64,000 nucleotides of DNA from Paenibacillus assamensis DSM 18201. GTDB lineage: Bacteria > Bacillota > Bacilli > Paenibacillales > Paenibacillaceae. The DNA is taken from positions 62,001 through 126,000 of the forward strand of contig NZ_AULU01000006.1 in the NCBI RefSeq assembly GCF_000422445.1. The letters run 5' to 3'. The notes beneath the pieces were generated by a model that saw only the letters and a list, made by a program, of their open reading frames with translations, was not told the DNA's origin and did not search any database. The position numbers and the translations under genes were made by a program. This document shows positions 15,839 through 50,196 of this stretch, piece by piece. Position 1 is the stretch's first letter; each line of letters begins with the position of its first letter.

Positions 15839-16060
15839 GTGGAACAAACGGATTTTGTTGTAATTAAGGCGAAAGAACAAGGCGTACAAGTTATCGGATT
15901 GACAAGAGGGCAAGATACAAGATTTCATCACACCGAAAAATTAGACAAGAATGAGGTCCTCATTGCACAATTCACGGATCATACATCTGCAATCAAGATT
16001 CGCGGCAAAGCTATGATTATGAGCAAGCATGGTACGGTTCATACGGATAAAGACGAATAG
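15839..16060 (+). CDS. mtrB: Trp RNA-binding attenuation protein (TRAP)
   Basis: TRAP forms an 11-subunit ring that, when loaded with tryptophan, wraps RNA containing eleven (G/U)AG triplets and so represses trp genes. The 73-residue product aligns closely with B. subtilis [27 protein letters not shown] and TSAIKIRG. The three RNA-contact residues known in B. subtilis (Lys37, Lys56, Arg58) correspond to Lys34, Lys53 and Arg55 here and are all kept. It starts with GTG behind AAGGAGGGG. In B. subtilis mtrB follows folE (mtrA); folE is missing here. The matching RNA target is at 26337-26389 in this window. Confidence 0.97.
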
Positions 16061-25896: not shown

Positions 25897-26271
25897 ATGT
25901 GGGTGAGGGGAATACGTGGAGCAACAACCGTGCAAGCAAATGATGCAGATGAAATTTTACAAGCAACATCAGAGCTGTTAGACGAAATCGTTCAACGTAA
26001 TGGCGTTGAGCCAGAATCCATTTCAAGTGTTTGGATTACTATGACAGAAGATTTAAATGCAACGTTCCCGGCTCGTGCGATCCGTACTTTGCCGAATTGG
26101 GAGCTCGTTCCTATTATGTGTGCATTGGAAATACCTGTGGAGGGTAGTTTGCCTAAATGTATACGATTAATGGTTCATATTAATACTGAAAAATCACAAG
26201 AGGCTATCCAGCATGTGTATTTAAAGGAGTCGGCACAGCTACGCCCTGATTTGGCTGGACCGACTTCGTAG
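25897..26271 (+). CDS. aroH: Chorismate mutase, AroH class
   Basis: AroH rearranges chorismate to prephenate for tyrosine and phenylalanine. The 124-residue protein belongs to the trimeric AroH class: MWVRGIRGATTV at the start with the active-site arginine, ATFPARAIR in the middle with another substrate-binding arginine, and CALEIPVEGSLPKCIR near the end. AAAGGAGAG precedes the ATG. In B. subtilis trpE follows immediately; here a 447-base leader region follows and trpE is absent. Confidence 0.97.
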   Translation: MWVRGIRGATTVQANDADEILQATSELLDEIVQRNGVEPESISSVWITMTEDLNATFPARAIRTLPNWELVPIMCALEIPVEGSLPKCIRLMVHINTEKSQEAIQHVYLKESAQLRPDLAGPTS

Positions 26272-26284
26272 CGGAATAGCTATG

Positions 26285-26330
26285 AGCATGTGATTCCGTC
26301 ATTGACGACTTCCACATGCTAGTGTATAGT
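26285..26330 (+). promoter_or_regulatory. Sigma-A promoter of the trp leader with flanking inverted repeat
   Basis: TTGACG (26302-26307) and TATAGT (26325-26330) stand 17 bp apart; each is one base off consensus. An 8-bp perfect inverted repeat, AGCATGTG (26285-26292) and CACATGCT (26313-26320), encloses the -35 box and could be an operator or the end of the aroH transcript. The expected transcription start is near 26337. Confidence 0.78.
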
Positions 26331-26336
26331 TGGCAT

Positions 26337-26389
26337 TAGCAGAGTTGAGTATAGTGTAGTTGAGATGAGATTAGATGAGTAGAGTTGAG
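26337..26389 (+). promoter_or_regulatory. TRAP binding site: eleven (G/T)AG triplets in the trp leader
   Basis: TAG or GAG triplets begin at 26337, 26342, 26347, 26352, 26357, 26362, 26367, 26372, 26377, 26382 and 26387. These are eleven triplets, each separated by exactly two bases. This equals the number of subunits in the TRAP ring encoded by mtrB at 15839. Known B. subtilis sites have eleven triplets with 2-3 base spacers. The promoter above predicts transcription starting at or near the first triplet, so the site would lie at the very 5' end of the RNA. Confidence 0.93.
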
Positions 26390-26627
26390 TTTAAGCGTGT
26401 TTTTGATTATCAGATCAGATTTCGATATATGGAGATAAGAAGAGTTCTCAGTGCTATGTGTCCATAGTCTTGTTTGTGTAACAAGGGTGGAACATTAATA
26501 TTGGTATATCTTCTATATGTCCATACTTATGCATGGATAGATGATGTATGGGCATCGTTGTCTTTACTTCATGTACCTTGCGTTCTGATAACAACACCAC
26601 CTTTTATTTCTTCAATTTTATCATCGC
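26390..26627 (+). other. trp leader RNA between the TRAP site and the terminator
   Basis: About 240 bases of leader without a supported gene. Visible elements are a hairpin CTTGTT/AACAAG (26469-26485) followed by AAGGGTGG, which can pair with CCACCTTT (26597-26604). Such pairing would form a long-range structure over the leader. The distance from TRAP site to terminator is about ten times the B. subtilis spacing. A reading frame at 26474-26722 has no ribosome-binding site and runs through the terminator. Confidence 0.5.
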
Positions 26628-26672
26628 GTTCAACACACCTCTGCGGAAGCAGAGGTTTTTTTGTTGTTGAAC
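26628..26672 (+). terminator. trp leader terminator (attenuator)
   Basis: ACCTCTGC (26637-26644) and GCAGAGGT (26649-26656) form an 8-bp stem with a GGAA loop, then T residues to 26662. An outer pair GTTCAAC (26628-26634) and GTTGAAC (26666-26672) can lengthen the stem. GTTCAAC can instead pair with GTTGAGT in the TRAP site, which offers a simple antiterminator. The position before the trp coding region fits transcription attenuation. Confidence 0.85.
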
Positions 26673-26718
26673 ACCTATCTATCCCTACAAATGCAAGTAA
26701 GGGAAAGGAGTGTGCGCG

Positions 26719-26844
26719 ATGATTCCTCCAATGATTGAGCGCAGGAATGATCCCACGAGTTCAGTATCTTCTCTTTTTCGTTTCTCACACATACCGAATT
26801 ACCGATTAGAAGATTGGCGAACGTTATGCAGTACAACTCGCTGA
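26719..26844 (+). CDS. Short reading frame with a strong ribosome-binding site at the place of trpE
   Basis: ATG 26719 lies eight bases after AAAGGAG, an excellent initiation site just downstream of the attenuator, exactly where trpE would begin. The frame encodes only 41 residues (start MIPPMIERRND, end CSTTR) before TGA. It has no clear similarity to the start of TrpE. Two other frames over 26760-26900 are also open for 30-50 codons. It may be a remnant left by loss of trpE, or a small leader or regulatory peptide. No trpE or trpG is found anywhere in the window. About 125 bases of non-coding sequence follow before trpD. Confidence 0.45.
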   Translation: MIPPMIERRNDPTSSVSSLFRFSHIPNYRLEDWRTLCSTTR

Positions 26845-26968
26845 TAAGAAGCTATTTGCAAGTAATTCAATTAGGAAACTTAGAAGCTTCATTGCATCAT
26901 AAACGAGTTTAGATGTCACGAAGGACATAGTTGCTTATTAAATTAAGAAACGAAAAGGAGAGGATCAT

Positions 26969-28009
26969 ATGATAAATGATTATCGTGTGAAGGAAGCTTT
27001 AAGTAAGTTGTTAAGCGGAGACAGCTTAACAAGAGAAGAAGCTAGGCATGTCATGGAAGATATTATGCGCGGTGATGTAACACCTGCTCAGATTGGCGCC
27101 TTACTTGCTGGTCTTCGCTTTAAAGGTGAAACGGTCGATGAGATCACGGGGTTGGCTGAAGGGATGCGAAATGCTGCGAAACAGGTAATTACGTCTCGTG
27201 AACAATTGCTTGATACATGTGGTACTGGCGGATCAGGAATCCATAAGCTCAACGTATCGACTGTATCTGCTATTATTGCGGCGTCTGCATCTGTCCGCGT
27301 AGCAAAGCATGGAAATCGTTCAGCATCCAGTCGTTCAGGCAGTGCAGATGTGTTAGAAGCATTAGGTGTGAACATCCATCTTTCTAGTGAGAGTGCTGCC
27401 GAGTGTTTGGATCGCATTGGAATCTGCTTTATGTTCGCTCAAATGTTCCATCCTGCAATGAAATATGCAGCAGCACCCCGTAGAGAGCTTGGCATACGTA
27501 CCGTATTTAATATGTTAGGACCATTGACCAATCCAGCTGGGGCTGATCGACAACTGTTAGGCATTTATGACAAATCGAAAACGGATACTGTTGCAGCGGT
27601 ACTGCGAGAGTTAGGACTGAAGCGGGCTATGGTTGTGTCCAGTCTTGATGGATTAGATGAGATTGGCTTGTCTGCACCAACTCGTATAAGCGAATTGCGA
27701 AATGGAGATTTGCGGACGTATGAACTCACACCTGAAGATATGGGTTTGCGAACTCAGTCATTGAGTGACGTACTTGGCGGCGAAGCGGCAGATAATGCAA
27801 AAATTATCGTGAATATTTTAAATGGCGAGCGCGGGGCGCATCGAGATATCGTACTAGCAAACGCAGGTGCTTGCATTTATGTCTCAGGTCAAGCAGATTC
27901 CATACGCGAAGGGGTACAAATTGCTGCTGATATGATAGATACTGGAAAGGCAAACAGTAAGCTGCAACAATTGATCGAGACAACTGGAGGGATGAGTCAT
28001 GTTTCTTAA
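26969..28009 (+). CDS. trpD: Anthranilate phosphoribosyltransferase
   Basis: TrpD joins anthranilate to PRPP. The 346-residue protein has the PRPP-binding loop DTCGTGGSGIHKLNVST near residue 75, the KHGNRSASSRSGSADVLEALG segment near residue 113 and MKYAAAPRREL near residue 163, all typical. AAAAGGAGAGG precedes the ATG. It is the first complete gene after the trp leader and overlaps trpC by 11 bases. Its substrate anthranilate would normally come from TrpE/TrpG, which are not encoded here. Confidence 0.98.
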   Translation: MINDYRVKEALSKLLSGDSLTREEARHVMEDIMRGDVTPAQIGALLAGLRFKGETVDEITGLAEGMRNAAKQVITSREQLLDTCGTGGSGIHKLNVSTVSAIIAASASVRVAKHGNRSASSRSGSADVLEALGVNIHLSSESAAECLDRIGICFMFAQMFHPAMKYAAAPRRELGIRTVFNMLGPLTNPAGADRQLLGIYDKSKTDTVAAVLRELGLKRAMVVSSLDGLDEIGLSAPTRISELRNGDLRTYELTPEDMGLRTQSLSDVLGGEAADNAKIIVNILNGERGAHRDIVLANAGACIYVSGQADSIREGVQIAADMIDTGKANSKLQQLIETTGGMSHVS

Positions 28010-28823
28010 TCGTATTGTAGAAACGAAGAAGGCAGAAGTCGAACAACTGCAGAAGCATTTGAATGTTGCTCAAGCAGAAGCAGATATATCTACGTTAATG
28101 CCAGTGCGCTCACTACGAGAAGCGATTACGACGAAGCGCAGTCGTGGAGTAGGATTAATCGCCGAAGTGAAAAAAGCATCTCCTTCTAAAGGGATCATAC
28201 GAGAGCAATTTAATCCGGTAGAAATCGCGCAAAGCTACGTTCAAGCGGGTGCTGATGCACTGTCGGTATTGACCGATGTTTCCTATTTTCAGGGCGGAAT
28301 CGATATATTTAAGCAAGTTCGGGCTCAAGTAGATGTTCCTATGCTGCGCAAAGATTTTATCATCAGTCGTGAGCAACTGCTCGAAGCAAGATTAATAGGA
28401 GCGGACGCGGTTTTGCTCATTGCTGCCATTTTAGATGATGTACAGCTGAAGGAATTATTCGAGCAAAGCAAAGAGCTGGGAATGGAAGCATTAATTGAAG
28501 TGCATGAAGAAAGTGAACTGCACCGTGTGTTGAACTTGGAGCATGTTCAATTAATTGGCATTAACAATCGTAACCTACACACCTTTGTTACAGACTTGGC
28601 TCAAACGGATCAATTGCGCAAATTGGTGCCTAGTCACTGCACATTAGTGAGTGAGAGTGGTATCCATTTGCCCGAACATATTGCTCATCTATATGAGTCC
28701 AGTGTCGATGCAGTGCTTATAGGCGAGCATTTTATGCGAAATGACAACATTGGAGAGGCTGTGCACGATCTGATGAAGCCCGCTGAGCAGGTGTCATCTA
28801 CCACAGGAAGTGTGAGTTCATGA
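27999..28823 (+). CDS. trpC: Indole-3-glycerol phosphate synthase
   Basis: TrpC closes the indole ring from carboxyphenylamino-deoxyribulose phosphate. The 274-residue TIM barrel carries the signature IAEVKKASPSKGIIRE near residue 54, then LRKDFIISREQLLEARLIGADAVLLI as the catalytic Lys segment split over strands, and IGINNRNLHTF and VSESGI near the end. It overlaps trpD by 11 and trpF by 4 bases, so the genes are translationally coupled. Confidence 0.98.
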   Translation: MFLNRIVETKKAEVEQLQKHLNVAQAEADISTLMPVRSLREAITTKRSRGVGLIAEVKKASPSKGIIREQFNPVEIAQSYVQAGADALSVLTDVSYFQGGIDIFKQVRAQVDVPMLRKDFIISREQLLEARLIGADAVLLIAAILDDVQLKELFEQSKELGMEALIEVHEESELHRVLNLEHVQLIGINNRNLHTFVTDLAQTDQLRKLVPSHCTLVSESGIHLPEHIAHLYESSVDAVLIGEHFMRNDNIGEAVHDLMKPAEQVSSTTGSVSS

Positions 28824-29527
28824 ACGTTAAAATATGCGGGATGACGTCTTTGGAGATGACTAGAGGCGTCATTGCATGCAATCCTGATCATATCGGATTT
28901 GTATTTGCGAAAAGTCGCAGGCAAGTGTCACCTGACACCGTTCAATCCATTCTGAATCAATTAGAGAATGAGCAAGTTCACATTCCTCATACAGTGGGTG
29001 TATTTGCAAATGCTGATATTCAAAGTTTAAAGGCTGTCATGAAATCCTGCTCGGTTCAGGCGCTGCAATTTCATGGCAATGAACAGCTGGACATTTGTCG
29101 ATGGGTGAAAGAAAATAGTAATATGGATGTTTGGTTAACATTACCAATATCAAACGTTAAAAAAATAGATTTTGAGGATAAATTGAATGATCAGTTTGAG
29201 CGCTTAGCGAAAGCAGTTCCTTACATTGACTTATTGTTGCTCGACACTCATGATTCAGTTCAGGGTGGGGGCTCAGGGAAAGTGTTTCAATGGGATGTGA
29301 TCCCATCTTACCAATCTCGTGCCCAGCAATTAGGTATGCCGCTGTATGTGGCTGGCGGATTGAATCCGGACAACATTGGTAGTTTACTAACAAGCTATAA
29401 GCTTGATGGGGTTGATGTTTCCAGCGGTGTCGAGACAGACGGAATGAAAGACATGAGTAAAGTAGACACATTTATAGGAAGGGTGAGACAGCATGTCGAT
29501 ACAAGAACAAGTTTACCGTTATCCTGA
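28820..29527 (+). CDS. trpF: Phosphoribosylanthranilate isomerase
   Basis: TrpF performs the Amadori rearrangement of phosphoribosylanthranilate. The 235-residue TIM barrel begins [13 protein letters not shown], with Cys6 as the general base, and ends with the family pattern [17 protein letters not shown] and [10 protein letters not shown] second acid-base residue is expected at the Asp in LLLLDTHD. It overlaps trpB by 35 bases, an unusually long overlap with the trpB ribosome-binding site inside the trpF end. Confidence 0.97.
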
Positions 29528-30710
29528 TGCGAACGGACGTTATGGTCAGTTTGGTGGAAAGTATGTCCCTGAAACATTAATGAATGCATTAATTGAGCTA
29601 GAGCAAGCTTATGAAACATACCGAAATGATGAGCAGTTTCAGGCGGAGTACAAGCAGCTGTTGCAAAGCTATTCAGGTCGTCCGACATCACTTTATTATG
29701 CGGAGCGCATGACAAAGGAGCTCTGCGGTGCGAAGATTTATTTAAAACGAGAAGACTTGAACCATACAGGGGCTCACAAAATAAACAATACCATTGGTCA
29801 GGCTTTACTGGCCAAACGAATGGGCAAAAAAAAGGTAATCGCAGAGACTGGAGCGGGACAACATGGTGTAGCTACAGCTACCGTATGTGCACTGCTTGGC
29901 TTAGAGTGCAAAGTATTTATGGGTGAGGAAGATATGAGACGTCAACGGCTGAATGTGTTCCGGATGGAGCTGCTCGGTGCTGAGGTGGTGCCAGTTATTT
30001 CTGGTACAAGAACACTGAAGGATGCCGGAAATGAAGCATTGCGTTATTGGGTTTCTAACGTGACGGATACCTTCTATATTTTGGGTTCTGTAGTAGGACC
30101 TCATCCTTATCCGATGATCGTTCGTGATTTTCAACGTATTATCGGGGACGAGACGAAACGACAAATACAAGAGTTAGAGGGAAGATTGCCAGATGTATGT
30201 GTTGCCGCTGTTGGCGGTGGAAGCAATGCGATGGGAATGTTCTATCCATTTATAAATGACCTCAGTGTCAATCTTGTAGGCGTGGAAGCTGCAGGACGAG
30301 GTGTTGACACGAAAGAGCATGCCGCTACGATGACTTTGGGTACACCAGGGGTGTTTCAGGGTTCATTAAGCTATTTGTTGCAAGATGAGTTTGGTCAAGT
30401 ACAGCCAGCTCATTCCATTTCGGCAGGTCTTGATTACCCAGGTGTTGGGCCAGAGCATGCTCACTTACATGCATCCGGAAGAGCAACCTACGCACCAATT
30501 ACAGATAACGAAGCACTAGATGCTCTTCAATTTATGTGTCGTACAGAAGGGATTATCCCTGCCTTGGAATCTTCTCATGCTGTAGCCCAAGCGATAAAGC
30601 TTGCTCCTACGATGAGGCAAGATGAGTTGTTAGTAATCTGTTTGTCTGGTCGCGGGGATAAGGATGTTGGTACGATCATGGAAGTACTAGGGGGAAATAA
30701 ACATGAATAA
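29493..30710 (+). CDS. trpB: Tryptophan synthase beta chain
   Basis: TrpB condenses indole with serine using pyridoxal phosphate. The 405-residue protein begins with a [16 protein letters not shown] motif. The PLP lysine is in [15 protein letters not shown], and the phosphate-binding loop is [14 protein letters not shown]. The C-terminal [13 protein letters not shown] is also typical. It forms an alpha2beta2 complex with TrpA, whose gene starts 8 bases before this one ends. Confidence 0.98.
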
Positions 30711-31524
30711 CACCGTCATGAATCGTATGGATGCAGCATTCGAAAAATTAAAGTCAGAAGGAAAAACGGCACTTATTCCGTTTATTACGGTTGGAGACCC
30801 TCATATCGATGTTACGTTAGAATTGTTGCTTGGTATGGAACAGTCAGGAGCGGATATGATTGAGTTAGGTGTACCTTACTCAGATCCGCTTGCCGATGGG
30901 CCTGTTATCGAACGTGCTTCAGCCCGTGCGTTGCAAAACGATATTACGCTTCGGGACAGTTTACAAGTAGCGAAAAAAGCTAGAGAACGTGGTGCAAACA
31001 TTCCATATGTGCTGTTTACGTACTACAATCCTGTGTTTCAATATGGAGCAGAGAAATTATTTAAGGAAATGGTAGACTCCGAGATCAGCGGCATTATTAT
31101 CCCTGATTTGCCTCTTGAAGAGAGTACACCTATTCGAGAAATAGCGGATCGCTACTCGATCCATCTTGTGCCGCTAGTTGCGCCAACTTCGAAGGAGCGG
31201 GTCCAACAAATCGCACAGCATGGCCGAGGGTTTATTTATTGTGTGTCTTCATTAGGTGTAACAGGCGTTCGGAGTTCATTTGCCGCTAATATCGAACAGT
31301 TTTTGCAAGAAGTTCGTACAGCTACGAATCTGCCAATTGCGATCGGATTTGGTATTTCCAATGCAGAGCATGTACGCCGATTCTCTTCACACTGTGATGG
31401 AGTTGTTGTTGGGAGTGCTATTGTTCGTCAAATTGAAGAGGCACTGCCATTACTCCAATCACCACAGACGGCTCAAGATGGGGTATTGCAAATTTGTAAA
31501 TTTGTGCGAGAATTAAAATCATAG
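30703..31524 (+). CDS. trpA: Tryptophan synthase alpha chain
   Basis: TrpA cleaves indole-3-glycerol phosphate and channels indole to TrpB. The 273-residue TIM barrel has the signature [20 protein letters not shown] near residue 46 with the catalytic Asp, a tyrosine-containing segment [13 protein letters not shown], and the IIPDLPLEE segment. The phosphate-binding end [13 protein letters not shown] is present. It overlaps trpB by 8 bases and ends the tryptophan part of the operon. Confidence 0.98.
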
Positions 31525-31565
31525 CTTTAGCAAGTTGATACCCTGAAGTGGAGAGGTGTGATTGG

Positions 31566-32669
31566 ATGCGTATCAAAACGAAAGACATCGTCGCGAAGCT
31601 TCCTGTCTATCAGCCTGGTTTATCTGCTGAGGATGTGAAGCGTGAATACGGCATTGAAAAGGTCGTTAAGCTAGCATCCAACGAAAATCCGTACGGTTGT
31701 TCGGTTCAAGTCAAGCAGGCGCTTGAAGCAGAAATGAGCAAGCTGAGTTTATATCCTGATGGAGCTTCTCTTAAGCTGAAGCAGGCAGTTGCAGAACAAT
31801 TGCAAGTTAGCAGTGAACAGCTTATTTTTGGAGCAGGCTCAGATGATATTATACTGATGATATGTCGTGCATTTTTAACTGTGAATGATGAGTCTATTGT
31901 AGCGGATCAAACCTTTCCTCAATACAAGCACAATGCTGACATTGAGGGAGCCCGTACGATTGAAGTCCCTTTAAAAGAAGGCAAACATGATTTAGAAGGT
32001 ATGCTCGCTGCTATTACTGATCGAACGAAAATAGTCTGGATATGCAACCCGAACAATCCAACTGGAACGATAGTTACGAAAGAAGAGCTTATTACATTTA
32101 TGAGTCAGGTTCCTACTCATGTACTAGTAGCTCTAGATGAAGCGTATTGTGAATATGTGACGGATGCAAGCTATCCTAATTCACTCGAATTAATTGCAAA
32201 GTATCCAAATTTGGTTGCACTCCGCACGTTTTCCAAAATTCATGGCTTAGCATCATTGCGGCTTGGCTATGGTATCGGCCAACCTGAGGTGATTCGGTCG
32301 ATTAATCAAGTTAGAGAGCCATTTAATACGTCGCGCTTTGCACAGGCGGCAGGAATCGCTGCGATTCAAGATCAAGAGTATGTATCACAATGTAAGCAAT
32401 GGAACGCGGAAGGCTTGAGGTATTTACAAGAGCAGTGTGAGCGGTTAGAATTACGTACAATGCCAGCACATGGTAACTTCATTATGATCGAAGTTCCAAC
32501 GCTTGGTAAGGTCATGTTCGAACAATTGGTTAGCAAAGGGATTATCGTTCGAGCAGGATTCCGTCATTATCCAAATGCGATACGTGTCACGGTAGGAAGT
32601 CGTGAGCAGAATGAAGCATTTATTCAAGCTATAGAACAAATTTTATCAGAATGTAAGGTGGATCTATGA
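31566..32669 (+). CDS. hisC: Histidinol-phosphate / aromatic aminotransferase
   Basis: HisC is a class I/II PLP aminotransferase; in B. subtilis this copy serves histidine, tyrosine and phenylalanine synthesis. The 367-residue protein has ASNENPYGCS near the start, ICNPNNPTGT in the middle, and the PLP lysine in TFSKIHGLASLRLGYG. ATG 31566 is supported by GAGAGGTG; GTG 31548 is in frame but lies in the spacer. It overlaps tyrA by 4 bases, which fits a role in the last transamination of the aromatic branch. Confidence 0.95.
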   Translation: MRIKTKDIVAKLPVYQPGLSAEDVKREYGIEKVVKLASNENPYGCSVQVKQALEAEMSKLSLYPDGASLKLKQAVAEQLQVSSEQLIFGAGSDDIILMICRAFLTVNDESIVADQTFPQYKHNADIEGARTIEVPLKEGKHDLEGMLAAITDRTKIVWICNPNNPTGTIVTKEELITFMSQVPTHVLVALDEAYCEYVTDASYPNSLELIAKYPNLVALRTFSKIHGLASLRLGYGIGQPEVIRSINQVREPFNTSRFAQAAGIAAIQDQEYVSQCKQWNAEGLRYLQEQCERLELRTMPAHGNFIMIEVPTLGKVMFEQLVSKGIIVRAGFRHYPNAIRVTVGSREQNEAFIQAIEQILSECKVDL

Positions 32670-33766
32670 CTACGACTACAAAGATTGCCATTCTTGGAGT
32701 GGGCCTCATCGGAGGCTCGCTTGCATTATGTTTTAAGGGAAAACCAGGGCTTCATGTCATTGGATATTCCCCCCGTGCATCATCAGCTGAGAAATACGTA
32801 GAGCGCGGTGTCGTTGATGAAGCAACGACAAATCTGGAAGAAGCAGTGAAAGATGCGCACTATATATTTATTTGTTCTCCTGTAGGTATGCTAGAAGAAA
32901 CTATTTCGCACCTGAATACTTTAACGCTTAGACGCGGTTGTGTCATTACGGATGTTGGCAGTACAAAGGCCTCGGTAACCGCATGCGCAAGTAAATTGAA
33001 TTGGAATGAGGTTTACTTCGTTGGTGGTCATCCGATGGCAGGATCTGAGCGTTCTGGTGTGGAAGCGGCGTCCTTATTGTTATTTGAGAATGCATACTAT
33101 GTACTGACACCTACTAGTGATTGTCCAGACAATGTGATACAAGAACTTCGTCAACTGCTTCAATATACACGCGCACATATTATTCAAATGGATGCAGAAG
33201 AGCATGATCGAGTGGTTGGAGCGATTAGTCATCTGCCGCATATTGTGGCAACTGCACTAGTCAACCAAGTACGCCAGTACAATGATTCTAATGAGCTGCA
33301 TCTTGTACTTGCTGCTGGCGGTTTCCGAGATATTACTCGGATTGCATCCAGTGATCCTACTGTTTGGCGAGACATTTTGATTAACAATCGCCAAGTCATG
33401 CTGGATTTACTTCAGGATTGGCAGGATAAAGTGGAGGAATGGAAAGATGTTTTGCTGCGAGAAGATGGTGAGTGGATAGAAGAGTCTTTCCGTCTTTCGG
33501 GACATTTCCGCAATCAAATGCCTGAACGACGTAAAGGTGCCATTCATGCCCTTTATGATGTATATATGGATATACCTGATACGCCAGGTGTTATTGGCCG
33601 CATTGCAACCCAATTGGGACAAGAAGAGATTAATCTTAGCAATCTTCAGATTATTGAAAGTAGAGAAGATGTTCCAGGCGTGCTTCGACTTTCATTCCGA
33701 GAAGAGCAGAACTGGGAGCGTGCGCAGGCGTGCTTGCGTACTTTGGGTTATGAAGTATACGTGTAG
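32666..33766 (+). CDS. tyrA: Prephenate dehydrogenase with ACT domain
   Basis: TyrA oxidatively decarboxylates prephenate to hydroxyphenylpyruvate on the way to tyrosine. The 366-residue protein has an N-terminal NAD-binding motif LGVGLIGGSLAL, the substrate motif VGGHPMAGSERSG near residue 118, and the helical dimer domain with ISHLPHIVATAL. The last ~75 residues form an ACT domain (DIPDTPGVIGRIATQL) that usually senses tyrosine. In B. subtilis aroE (EPSP synthase) follows; here a terminator ends the operon. Confidence 0.97.
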   Translation: MTTTTKIAILGVGLIGGSLALCFKGKPGLHVIGYSPRASSAEKYVERGVVDEATTNLEEAVKDAHYIFICSPVGMLEETISHLNTLTLRRGCVITDVGSTKASVTACASKLNWNEVYFVGGHPMAGSERSGVEAASLLLFENAYYVLTPTSDCPDNVIQELRQLLQYTRAHIIQMDAEEHDRVVGAISHLPHIVATALVNQVRQYNDSNELHLVLAAGGFRDITRIASSDPTVWRDILINNRQVMLDLLQDWQDKVEEWKDVLLREDGEWIEESFRLSGHFRNQMPERRKGAIHALYDVYMDIPDTPGVIGRIATQLGQEEINLSNLQIIESREDVPGVLRLSFREEQNWERAQACLRTLGYEVYV

Positions 33767-49999: not shown

Positions 50000-50196
50000 T
50001 GGTATACTAGCTGTGTAGGCGGTATCCATGATTGGAACCGCACTCGCAAAGCAACGGAATTGTGCCTTTAATTGCATAGTAGCTGTGCTGCACATTTCTG
50101 CTCTGAGCCGAAGGGACCGAGACAGAAAGACGTCCGCATGTGACTTCTTTTTTGCTTTGGGACCTTTTTAGTGGAAACGCTAAAAGGTTTTTTTTG
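50000..50196 (+). ncRNA. Structured leader/attenuator upstream of panBCD
   Basis: An extended -10 box TGGTATACT (50000-50008) predicts a transcript starting near 50015. The RNA has several hairpins: GCGGT/ACCGC around CCA/TGG with unpaired A residues (50020-50041), and TTTCTG/CAGAAA (50096-50128 area). It then meets an intrinsic terminator with a GAAA tetraloop (ACC..TAGTG with CGCTAAAAGGT, 50162-50188) and eight or more T residues. panB starts 44 bases later. A terminator between promoter and gene indicates attenuation. Pantothenate genes of Firmicutes are known to carry the pan RNA motif with bulged adenosines; I could not verify a match. Confidence 0.55.

Follow-up and report, generated by a model that had tools for sequence, protein, structure and literature searches.

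Apparent replacement of trpE by an unlinked trpE-trpG fusion with a TRAP-type leader in a Paenibacillus genome

The tryptophan operon in the window, by which we mean the whole 64-kb stretch of contig C4 analysed here, begins with trpD, and its missing trpE has very likely been replaced by a self-regulated trpE-trpG fusion gene, trpE(G), with TRAP joining two unlinked loci of the pathway, and tryptophan synthesis very probably continues in this cell. On this account, an ancestor would have gained trpE(G), whose single polypeptide would combine anthranilate synthase with its own glutaminase, together with a TRAP-type leader, after which the native trpE would have been redundant and could have been lost by deletion from its place between aroH and trpD, the TRAP leader staying behind in front of trpD. 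At high tryptophan, TRAP with bound Trp would terminate trpDCFBA-hisC-tyrA transcripts at the attenuator and would help a hairpin to hide the trpE(G) ribosome-binding site, with one regulator thereby keeping the unlinked pathway halves in step. A pathway entry enzyme would in this manner have been exchanged for another subtype, with, by the sequence signs, the same RNA-binding regulator over both loci, and the before, during, and after states of the swap are visible in living species.

Within the 5.03 Mb genome to which the window belongs, aroH (25897..26271, forward strand), encoding chorismate mutase (TIGR01796, 168 bits for a cut-off of 82), precedes the operon leader. Here, a promoter-like TTGACG-17-TATAGT (26302..26330, forward) is a consensus match only, with two matches of this type in the stretch versus a shuffle mean of 2.3, and so not above chance. 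This is followed by a TRAP-type array of 11 (G/T)AG triplets with 2-nt spacers (26337..26389, forward), which is kept in three sister genomes; the triple pattern KAGNNKAGNNKAG has 11 matches in the window versus 2.9 expected, nine of them inside 26337-26389. Further downstream lies an intrinsic terminator, the putative attenuator (26637..26662, forward; stem 26637-26656 plus a T run), where the search found one terminator in the window versus a shuffle mean of 0.3. A ribosome-binding site, AAAGGAG (26704..26710, forward), occupies the place where trpE begins in relatives, and a 41-codon ORF from the ATG at 26719 (26719..26844, forward), open in four genomes, stands in place of trpE. The first full gene is now trpD (26969..28009, forward; TIGR01245, 416.9 bits for a cut-off of 199), which has its own AAAAGGAGA site upstream, and this is followed by trpC, putative trpF, trpB, trpA, hisC, and tyrA (27999..33766, forward). 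For trpF, we take the 235-aa ORF between trpC and trpB, named from its position; at the 1e-60 cut, no family was reached by this ORF. The canonical trpEDCFBA order with trpE first is not found at this operon, and the array-to-trpD distance is about 0.58 kb, versus about 1.85 kb in G009, a genome of the same genus with trpE present. Searched for a T-box, the window trp leader gave none at gathering, and other families match it at chance level only (E up to 1). Elsewhere in the window, an Rfam pan motif (RF01749, 42.9 bits for a cut-off of 36.2) is located at 50016-50129; such motifs are ordinary before pantothenate genes. An identical aroH-leader-trpD layout is present in three close relatives, and in two of these the contig exceeds 2.7 Mb; thus the trpE gap is not an assembly fault. 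The sequence-only reading of this stretch, that trpE is missing from a trp operon whose TRAP leader is kept, with 11 triplets, a terminator, and a ribosome-binding site before trpD, was therefore right.

A trpE coding relic is not proven in the 41-codon ORF, and none is claimed here. By local similarity, four peptides were compared with four TrpE tails, and one of the 16 comparisons fell below 0.05 (0.0175); in a split N- and C-terminal test against three TrpE proteins, 26, 11, and 26 of 200 shuffles were at or above the observed value; and a DNA comparison found nothing. Among the four genomes with the ORF open, its dN/dS is 0.85-1.46, and this value, together with a deletion common to four species (the window group), makes the recent loss proposed earlier doubtful.

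Across the whole genome, three chorismate-binding genes were detected (E <= 0.001), none of them in the window, and these encode DhbC on contig C5, a 373-aa PabB on C9, and, just before pabB, a 722-aa TrpE-TrpG fusion. The fusion passes TIGR01815 (1006.7 bits for a cut-off of 739.15, over the stretch 17-719 of 722) and NF010081, and to judge by these matches would be an active anthranilate synthase. A single open frame encodes both domains. Its amidotransferase Cys/His/Glu motifs, GVCLGLQG and QFHPES, do not vary among 13 fusions and would form the glutaminase triad. The fusion is the only anthranilate synthase candidate in the genome, which keeps trpD, trpC, trpB, and trpA. Against a canonical TrpE of the same genus it has 37% identity over 398 aa, and, as another enzyme type at this identity, it is not the old trpE moved. 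The fusion is 95% identical in Paenibacillus sp. SC116 (G007), the nearest named relative, and 98% identical in the nearer G013, and its neighbours whiA, HPr, pabB, SIMPL, and pot genes (named by eye) are common to the three sisters. The earlier statement that neither trpE nor trpG is encoded in the 64 kb is borne out, and a full-genome search for trpE, trpG, and pabB, which the sequence-only reading had suggested, finds the fusion and pabB on C9. The same reading had held that a trpE elsewhere under its own TRAP or T-box control would point to relocation and not loss; in substance this is what was found as regards function, in the form of a fusion with its own TRAP-type array, though the 37% identity speaks against simple relocation. 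Tryptophan auxotrophy, which had been put forward as one outcome, is not supported: it would require that the sole anthranilate synthase candidate be inactive in a genome that is 99.99% complete. The lack of trpE in a TRAP-type operon does not by itself imply auxotrophy.

The folate loci offer a side observation. In G000 (L209, C19) and G007 (L210), these are without a pabB-size ORF before pabA, such an ORF of 513-574 aa being present in the 14 other folate loci compared, and both genomes have instead the shorter PabB (373 aa) behind the trpE(G) fusion. Among 19 pabA/TrpG-like loci in 19 genomes (three being second copies outside the folate locus, and G036 left out), TRAP-like triplets near pabA are absent in G000, G007, and also several fusion-less relatives, and are present in some genomes only, most clearly G025 and G054. 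We considered whether pabA had lost TRAP control as a result, and from these loci we draw no conclusion.

A full-length fusion is found in 13 of 60 relatives and in 29 of 392 genomes of the order. Across the phylum the fusion is rare, at 6 of 299 genomes with the window's own counted. Using a canonical TrpE query from G001 and counting trpE as absent or decayed when the best E is above 1e-130, this is the case in 18 of the 29 genomes with the fusion versus two of the 363 without a full-length one (the partial fusion of G195 is counted among the latter), an association with a Fisher value of 1.2e-21, genome relatedness ignored. Three of these 18 genomes belong to the window group and ten to genus g7 (Saccharibacillus, as L122 equals G264 in the fusion tree); the remaining five are G048, G056, G046, and two with a decayed trpE. 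In the two fusion-less genomes without trpE, trpD is odd too, as G232 has a partial trpD match (residues 87-346) and the trpD of G061 is 40% identical. Loci with aroH, a gap, and trpD occur in four window-group genomes (one of these, G005, lies outside the 392), G048, G056, and the ten g7 genomes. In the ten g7 trp operons without trpE, leftover triplets are not above shuffles (16 to 195 of 200), and hence a kept TRAP leader is not shown in this genus, and in G046 aroH and trpD are nearly adjacent with no array between. One genome without the fusion, G010 (L087, C530), has trpE broken into two frames, of 197 and 316 aa, which may be a frameshift or a sequencing error. Comparison with related species had been proposed as a check, and it reveals the trpE gap in three sisters, which also have the fusion.

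A second TRAP-type array is located on C9 (L005:6290-6354), ending 73 nt before the fusion start codon, and comprises 12 (G/T)AG triplets and one CAG, with spacers mostly of 2 nt and one each of 1, 3, and 4 nt. Eight of the triplets come in a row, which none of 200 shuffles reaches, and the single promoter-like match ahead of the fusion does not exceed chance (shuffle mean of 2.1). When the whole genome was searched with a strict pattern of five regular triplets and no mismatch, the only matches were the trp array, the trpE(G) array, and one GGAGA repeat on C6, with the same pattern reversed giving no forward and five reverse matches; setting the simple repeat aside, this leaves two regular arrays at two loci of one pathway. 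The TRAP gene, mtrB (15839..16060, forward; 73 aa; PF02081, 131.9 bits; NF009724 MtrB, 136.3 bits for a cut-off of 117), is present in the same genome as the trpE(G) locus and in 59 of 60 relatives, with G046 being the one without it. We infer that TRAP would bind both arrays, with the direction of control as set out above.

Among the 18 genomes with canonical trpE absent or decayed, 16 have an array score of at least 8 upstream of the fusion, as do four of the 11 that keep trpE too; the background for this score is 0.5% of 20,000 random windows, an upper bound as the pool held real sites. By a looser triplet count, 16 of the same 18 genomes are matched by at most 9 of 200 shuffles. The arrays of G003 and G009 are missed by the strict score through one wide spacer, and have eight triplets by the looser count (1 and 0 of 200 shuffles). 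Moreover, G046, without trpE and mtrB, has no array at its fusion, the array of G181 does not stand out from shuffles (91 of 200), and the looser count is not above shuffles in several other leaders, G100, G321, G021, L115, L118, and L120 among them. In G020 (L027) and G351 (L206), five GAG triplets lie upstream of the chosen fusion start codon, the last of them ending 11 nt from it, similar to the TRAP sites in the translation start region of Bacillus subtilis trpG. A 77% identical fusion from Cohnella cholangitidis (L169) has the full array and hairpin, and its frame from the match start stops after 253 aa, which may be a frameshift or a sequencing error.

Downstream of the array, the ribosome-binding site is inside a hairpin in the 19 leaders folded, and two pairs of this hairpin, chosen from the folds themselves, show changes on both sides (GC 8, UA 6, AU 3, and unpaired 2 for the first; UA 10, CG 4, UG 1, and unpaired 4 for the second). 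A motif of the array, GAG(A)(A/T)CAGG, and CCTGTT just before the hairpin are both present in 16 and both absent in 28 of 46 leaders, with the array side alone in two (close relatives counted apart, and three duplicate loci dropped). When the triplets are held unpaired in folding, the hairpin gains more than 0.02 in probability in 14 of 17 leaders, with a large predicted gain in G227 (0.11 to 0.96), G312 (0.26 to 0.89), L116 (0.39 to 0.94), and G222 (0.56 to 0.88), and a fall in G100; in the folding of 16 leaders, the ribosome-binding site is mostly paired in both states. On these predictions, we lean slightly towards a hairpin switch at the trpE(G) ribosome-binding site. For this one step, it is possible, if somewhat doubtful, that the array alone acts, with TRAP either obstructing ribosomes or terminating transcription and the hairpin being a stable structure. 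The hairpin of the window group is predicted at 0.92-0.99 free versus 0.99 constrained, and so a switch is not predicted for the trpE(G) leader of the window's own genome, which favours action by the array alone, as do the GAG triplets close to the start codon in G020 and G351, whereas the co-occurrence of the array and pre-site motifs and the large predicted change in four relatives argue for the switch. As for the trp operon itself, the window terminator is predicted in both states (0.97 and 0.98), and a terminator hairpin of similar shape is seen in all 11 trp leaders folded.

Regarding the order of events, both canonical trpE and the fusion are found in 11 of the 29 fusion genomes, and two more, G002 (taken as P. 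aquistagni) and G011, have gutted trpE frames of 476 and 498 aa (L080 and L084) without the segment bearing PIAGT, ERAEH, DLGRND, and SHVMHI, the catalytic core. Between these two genomes, the trpE frames are 45% identical and TrpD is 90% identical, and the stop of the gutted trpE overlaps the trpD start, which suggests that the frame may have been retained because its translation leads into trpD. A tree was built from 58 fusion rows, after removal of two short ones and four duplicates. In it, G002 and G011 group with rows from another family (100/99), all of these falling within a clade of nine rows that takes in the window group (100/100), and the fusions of the same-genus G003 and G009 group with Saccharibacillus (100/96). 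Nine other fusion loci have in common with that of the window's genome only ABC-type matches and one trxB match (26-40% identity), apart from pabB, which matches at 61% in G048 and G056 and at 41% in G020. Taken together, the different loci, the family-crossing tree, and the genomes with both genes or a gutted trpE indicate that the fusion was probably gained before trpE was lost, and several times, and the locus and tree pattern fits repeated transfer of the fusion, leader included, followed by trpE loss. The reverse order, in which trpE loss gave an auxotroph lineage later rescued by gaining trpE(G), would leave the same final state in the window, yet we consider it unlikely in view of the fusion genomes that keep an intact or decayed trpE, and with just two of the 363 others lacking trpE, both of them with an odd trpD. 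Least likely is that the fusion serves some other pathway (e.g., siderophore or antibiotic) in a tryptophan auxotroph fed anthranilate or indole, since, although chorismate enzymes of this superfamily serve secondary metabolism and DhbC is encoded on C5, the fusion gives an equivalog-level anthranilate synthase match, has a TRAP-type array in front and no evident biosynthetic cluster among the neighbouring ORFs (read by eye), and is the sole anthranilate synthase candidate beside the kept trp genes.

Returning to replacement of trpE by trpE(G), we would tentatively propose, with a little less than even confidence, that trpE(G) and its TRAP leader form a portable self-regulating cassette among Paenibacillales and other Bacillota, which would be Trp-controlled on arrival in hosts with mtrB, make the native trpE dispensable and repeatedly deleted, and in two species leave a gutted trpE frame that survives just as a translated stretch leading into trpD. 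Transfer of a gene along with its regulated leader would offer a testable account of how foreign metabolic genes fit in at once.

A TRAP-led trpE(G) fusion that takes over from trpE, repeatedly and with intermediates, seems to be new within the searchable literature, whose titles and abstract beginnings, as searched, include no TRAP-controlled trpE(G) fusion, though the comparative papers of Gutierrez-Preciado and colleagues (cited in PMC11255114) may cover part of this. It also points to an additional class of TRAP target. A trpE-trpG fusion is also found in Rhizobium, and rhizobial trpE(G) is under a leader-peptide attenuator. Such fusions are named in Legionella pneumophila, Rhodopseudomonas palustris, Nostoc, and others in PMC2395257, and these have the same enzyme architecture and differ from the present fusion in its TRAP-type leader. 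In Lederbergia (L114, 9702-9936) and Sporolactobacillus (L120, 9693-9933), the same fused gene likewise stands behind an RNA leader, which there is a T-box (126.7 and 122.8 bits for a cut-off of 93) instead of a TRAP array. In B. subtilis, according to PMC11255114 and PMC2311275, TRAP acts on two separate loci, the trp operon and trpG, and the former source describes translational control of trpE and trpG, in which the trpE ribosome-binding site is accessible when TRAP is absent and becomes enclosed in a hairpin when TRAP is present. The anatomy of the trpE(G) leader resembles this trpE control, though here the switch is predicted in some relatives only. Compared with the B. subtilis trp operon, the TRAP gene, the (G/U)AG array, the attenuator, and the hairpin over a ribosome-binding site are alike, whereas here the second locus encodes the complete anthranilate synthase as one fused protein and trpD is the first gene of the operon.
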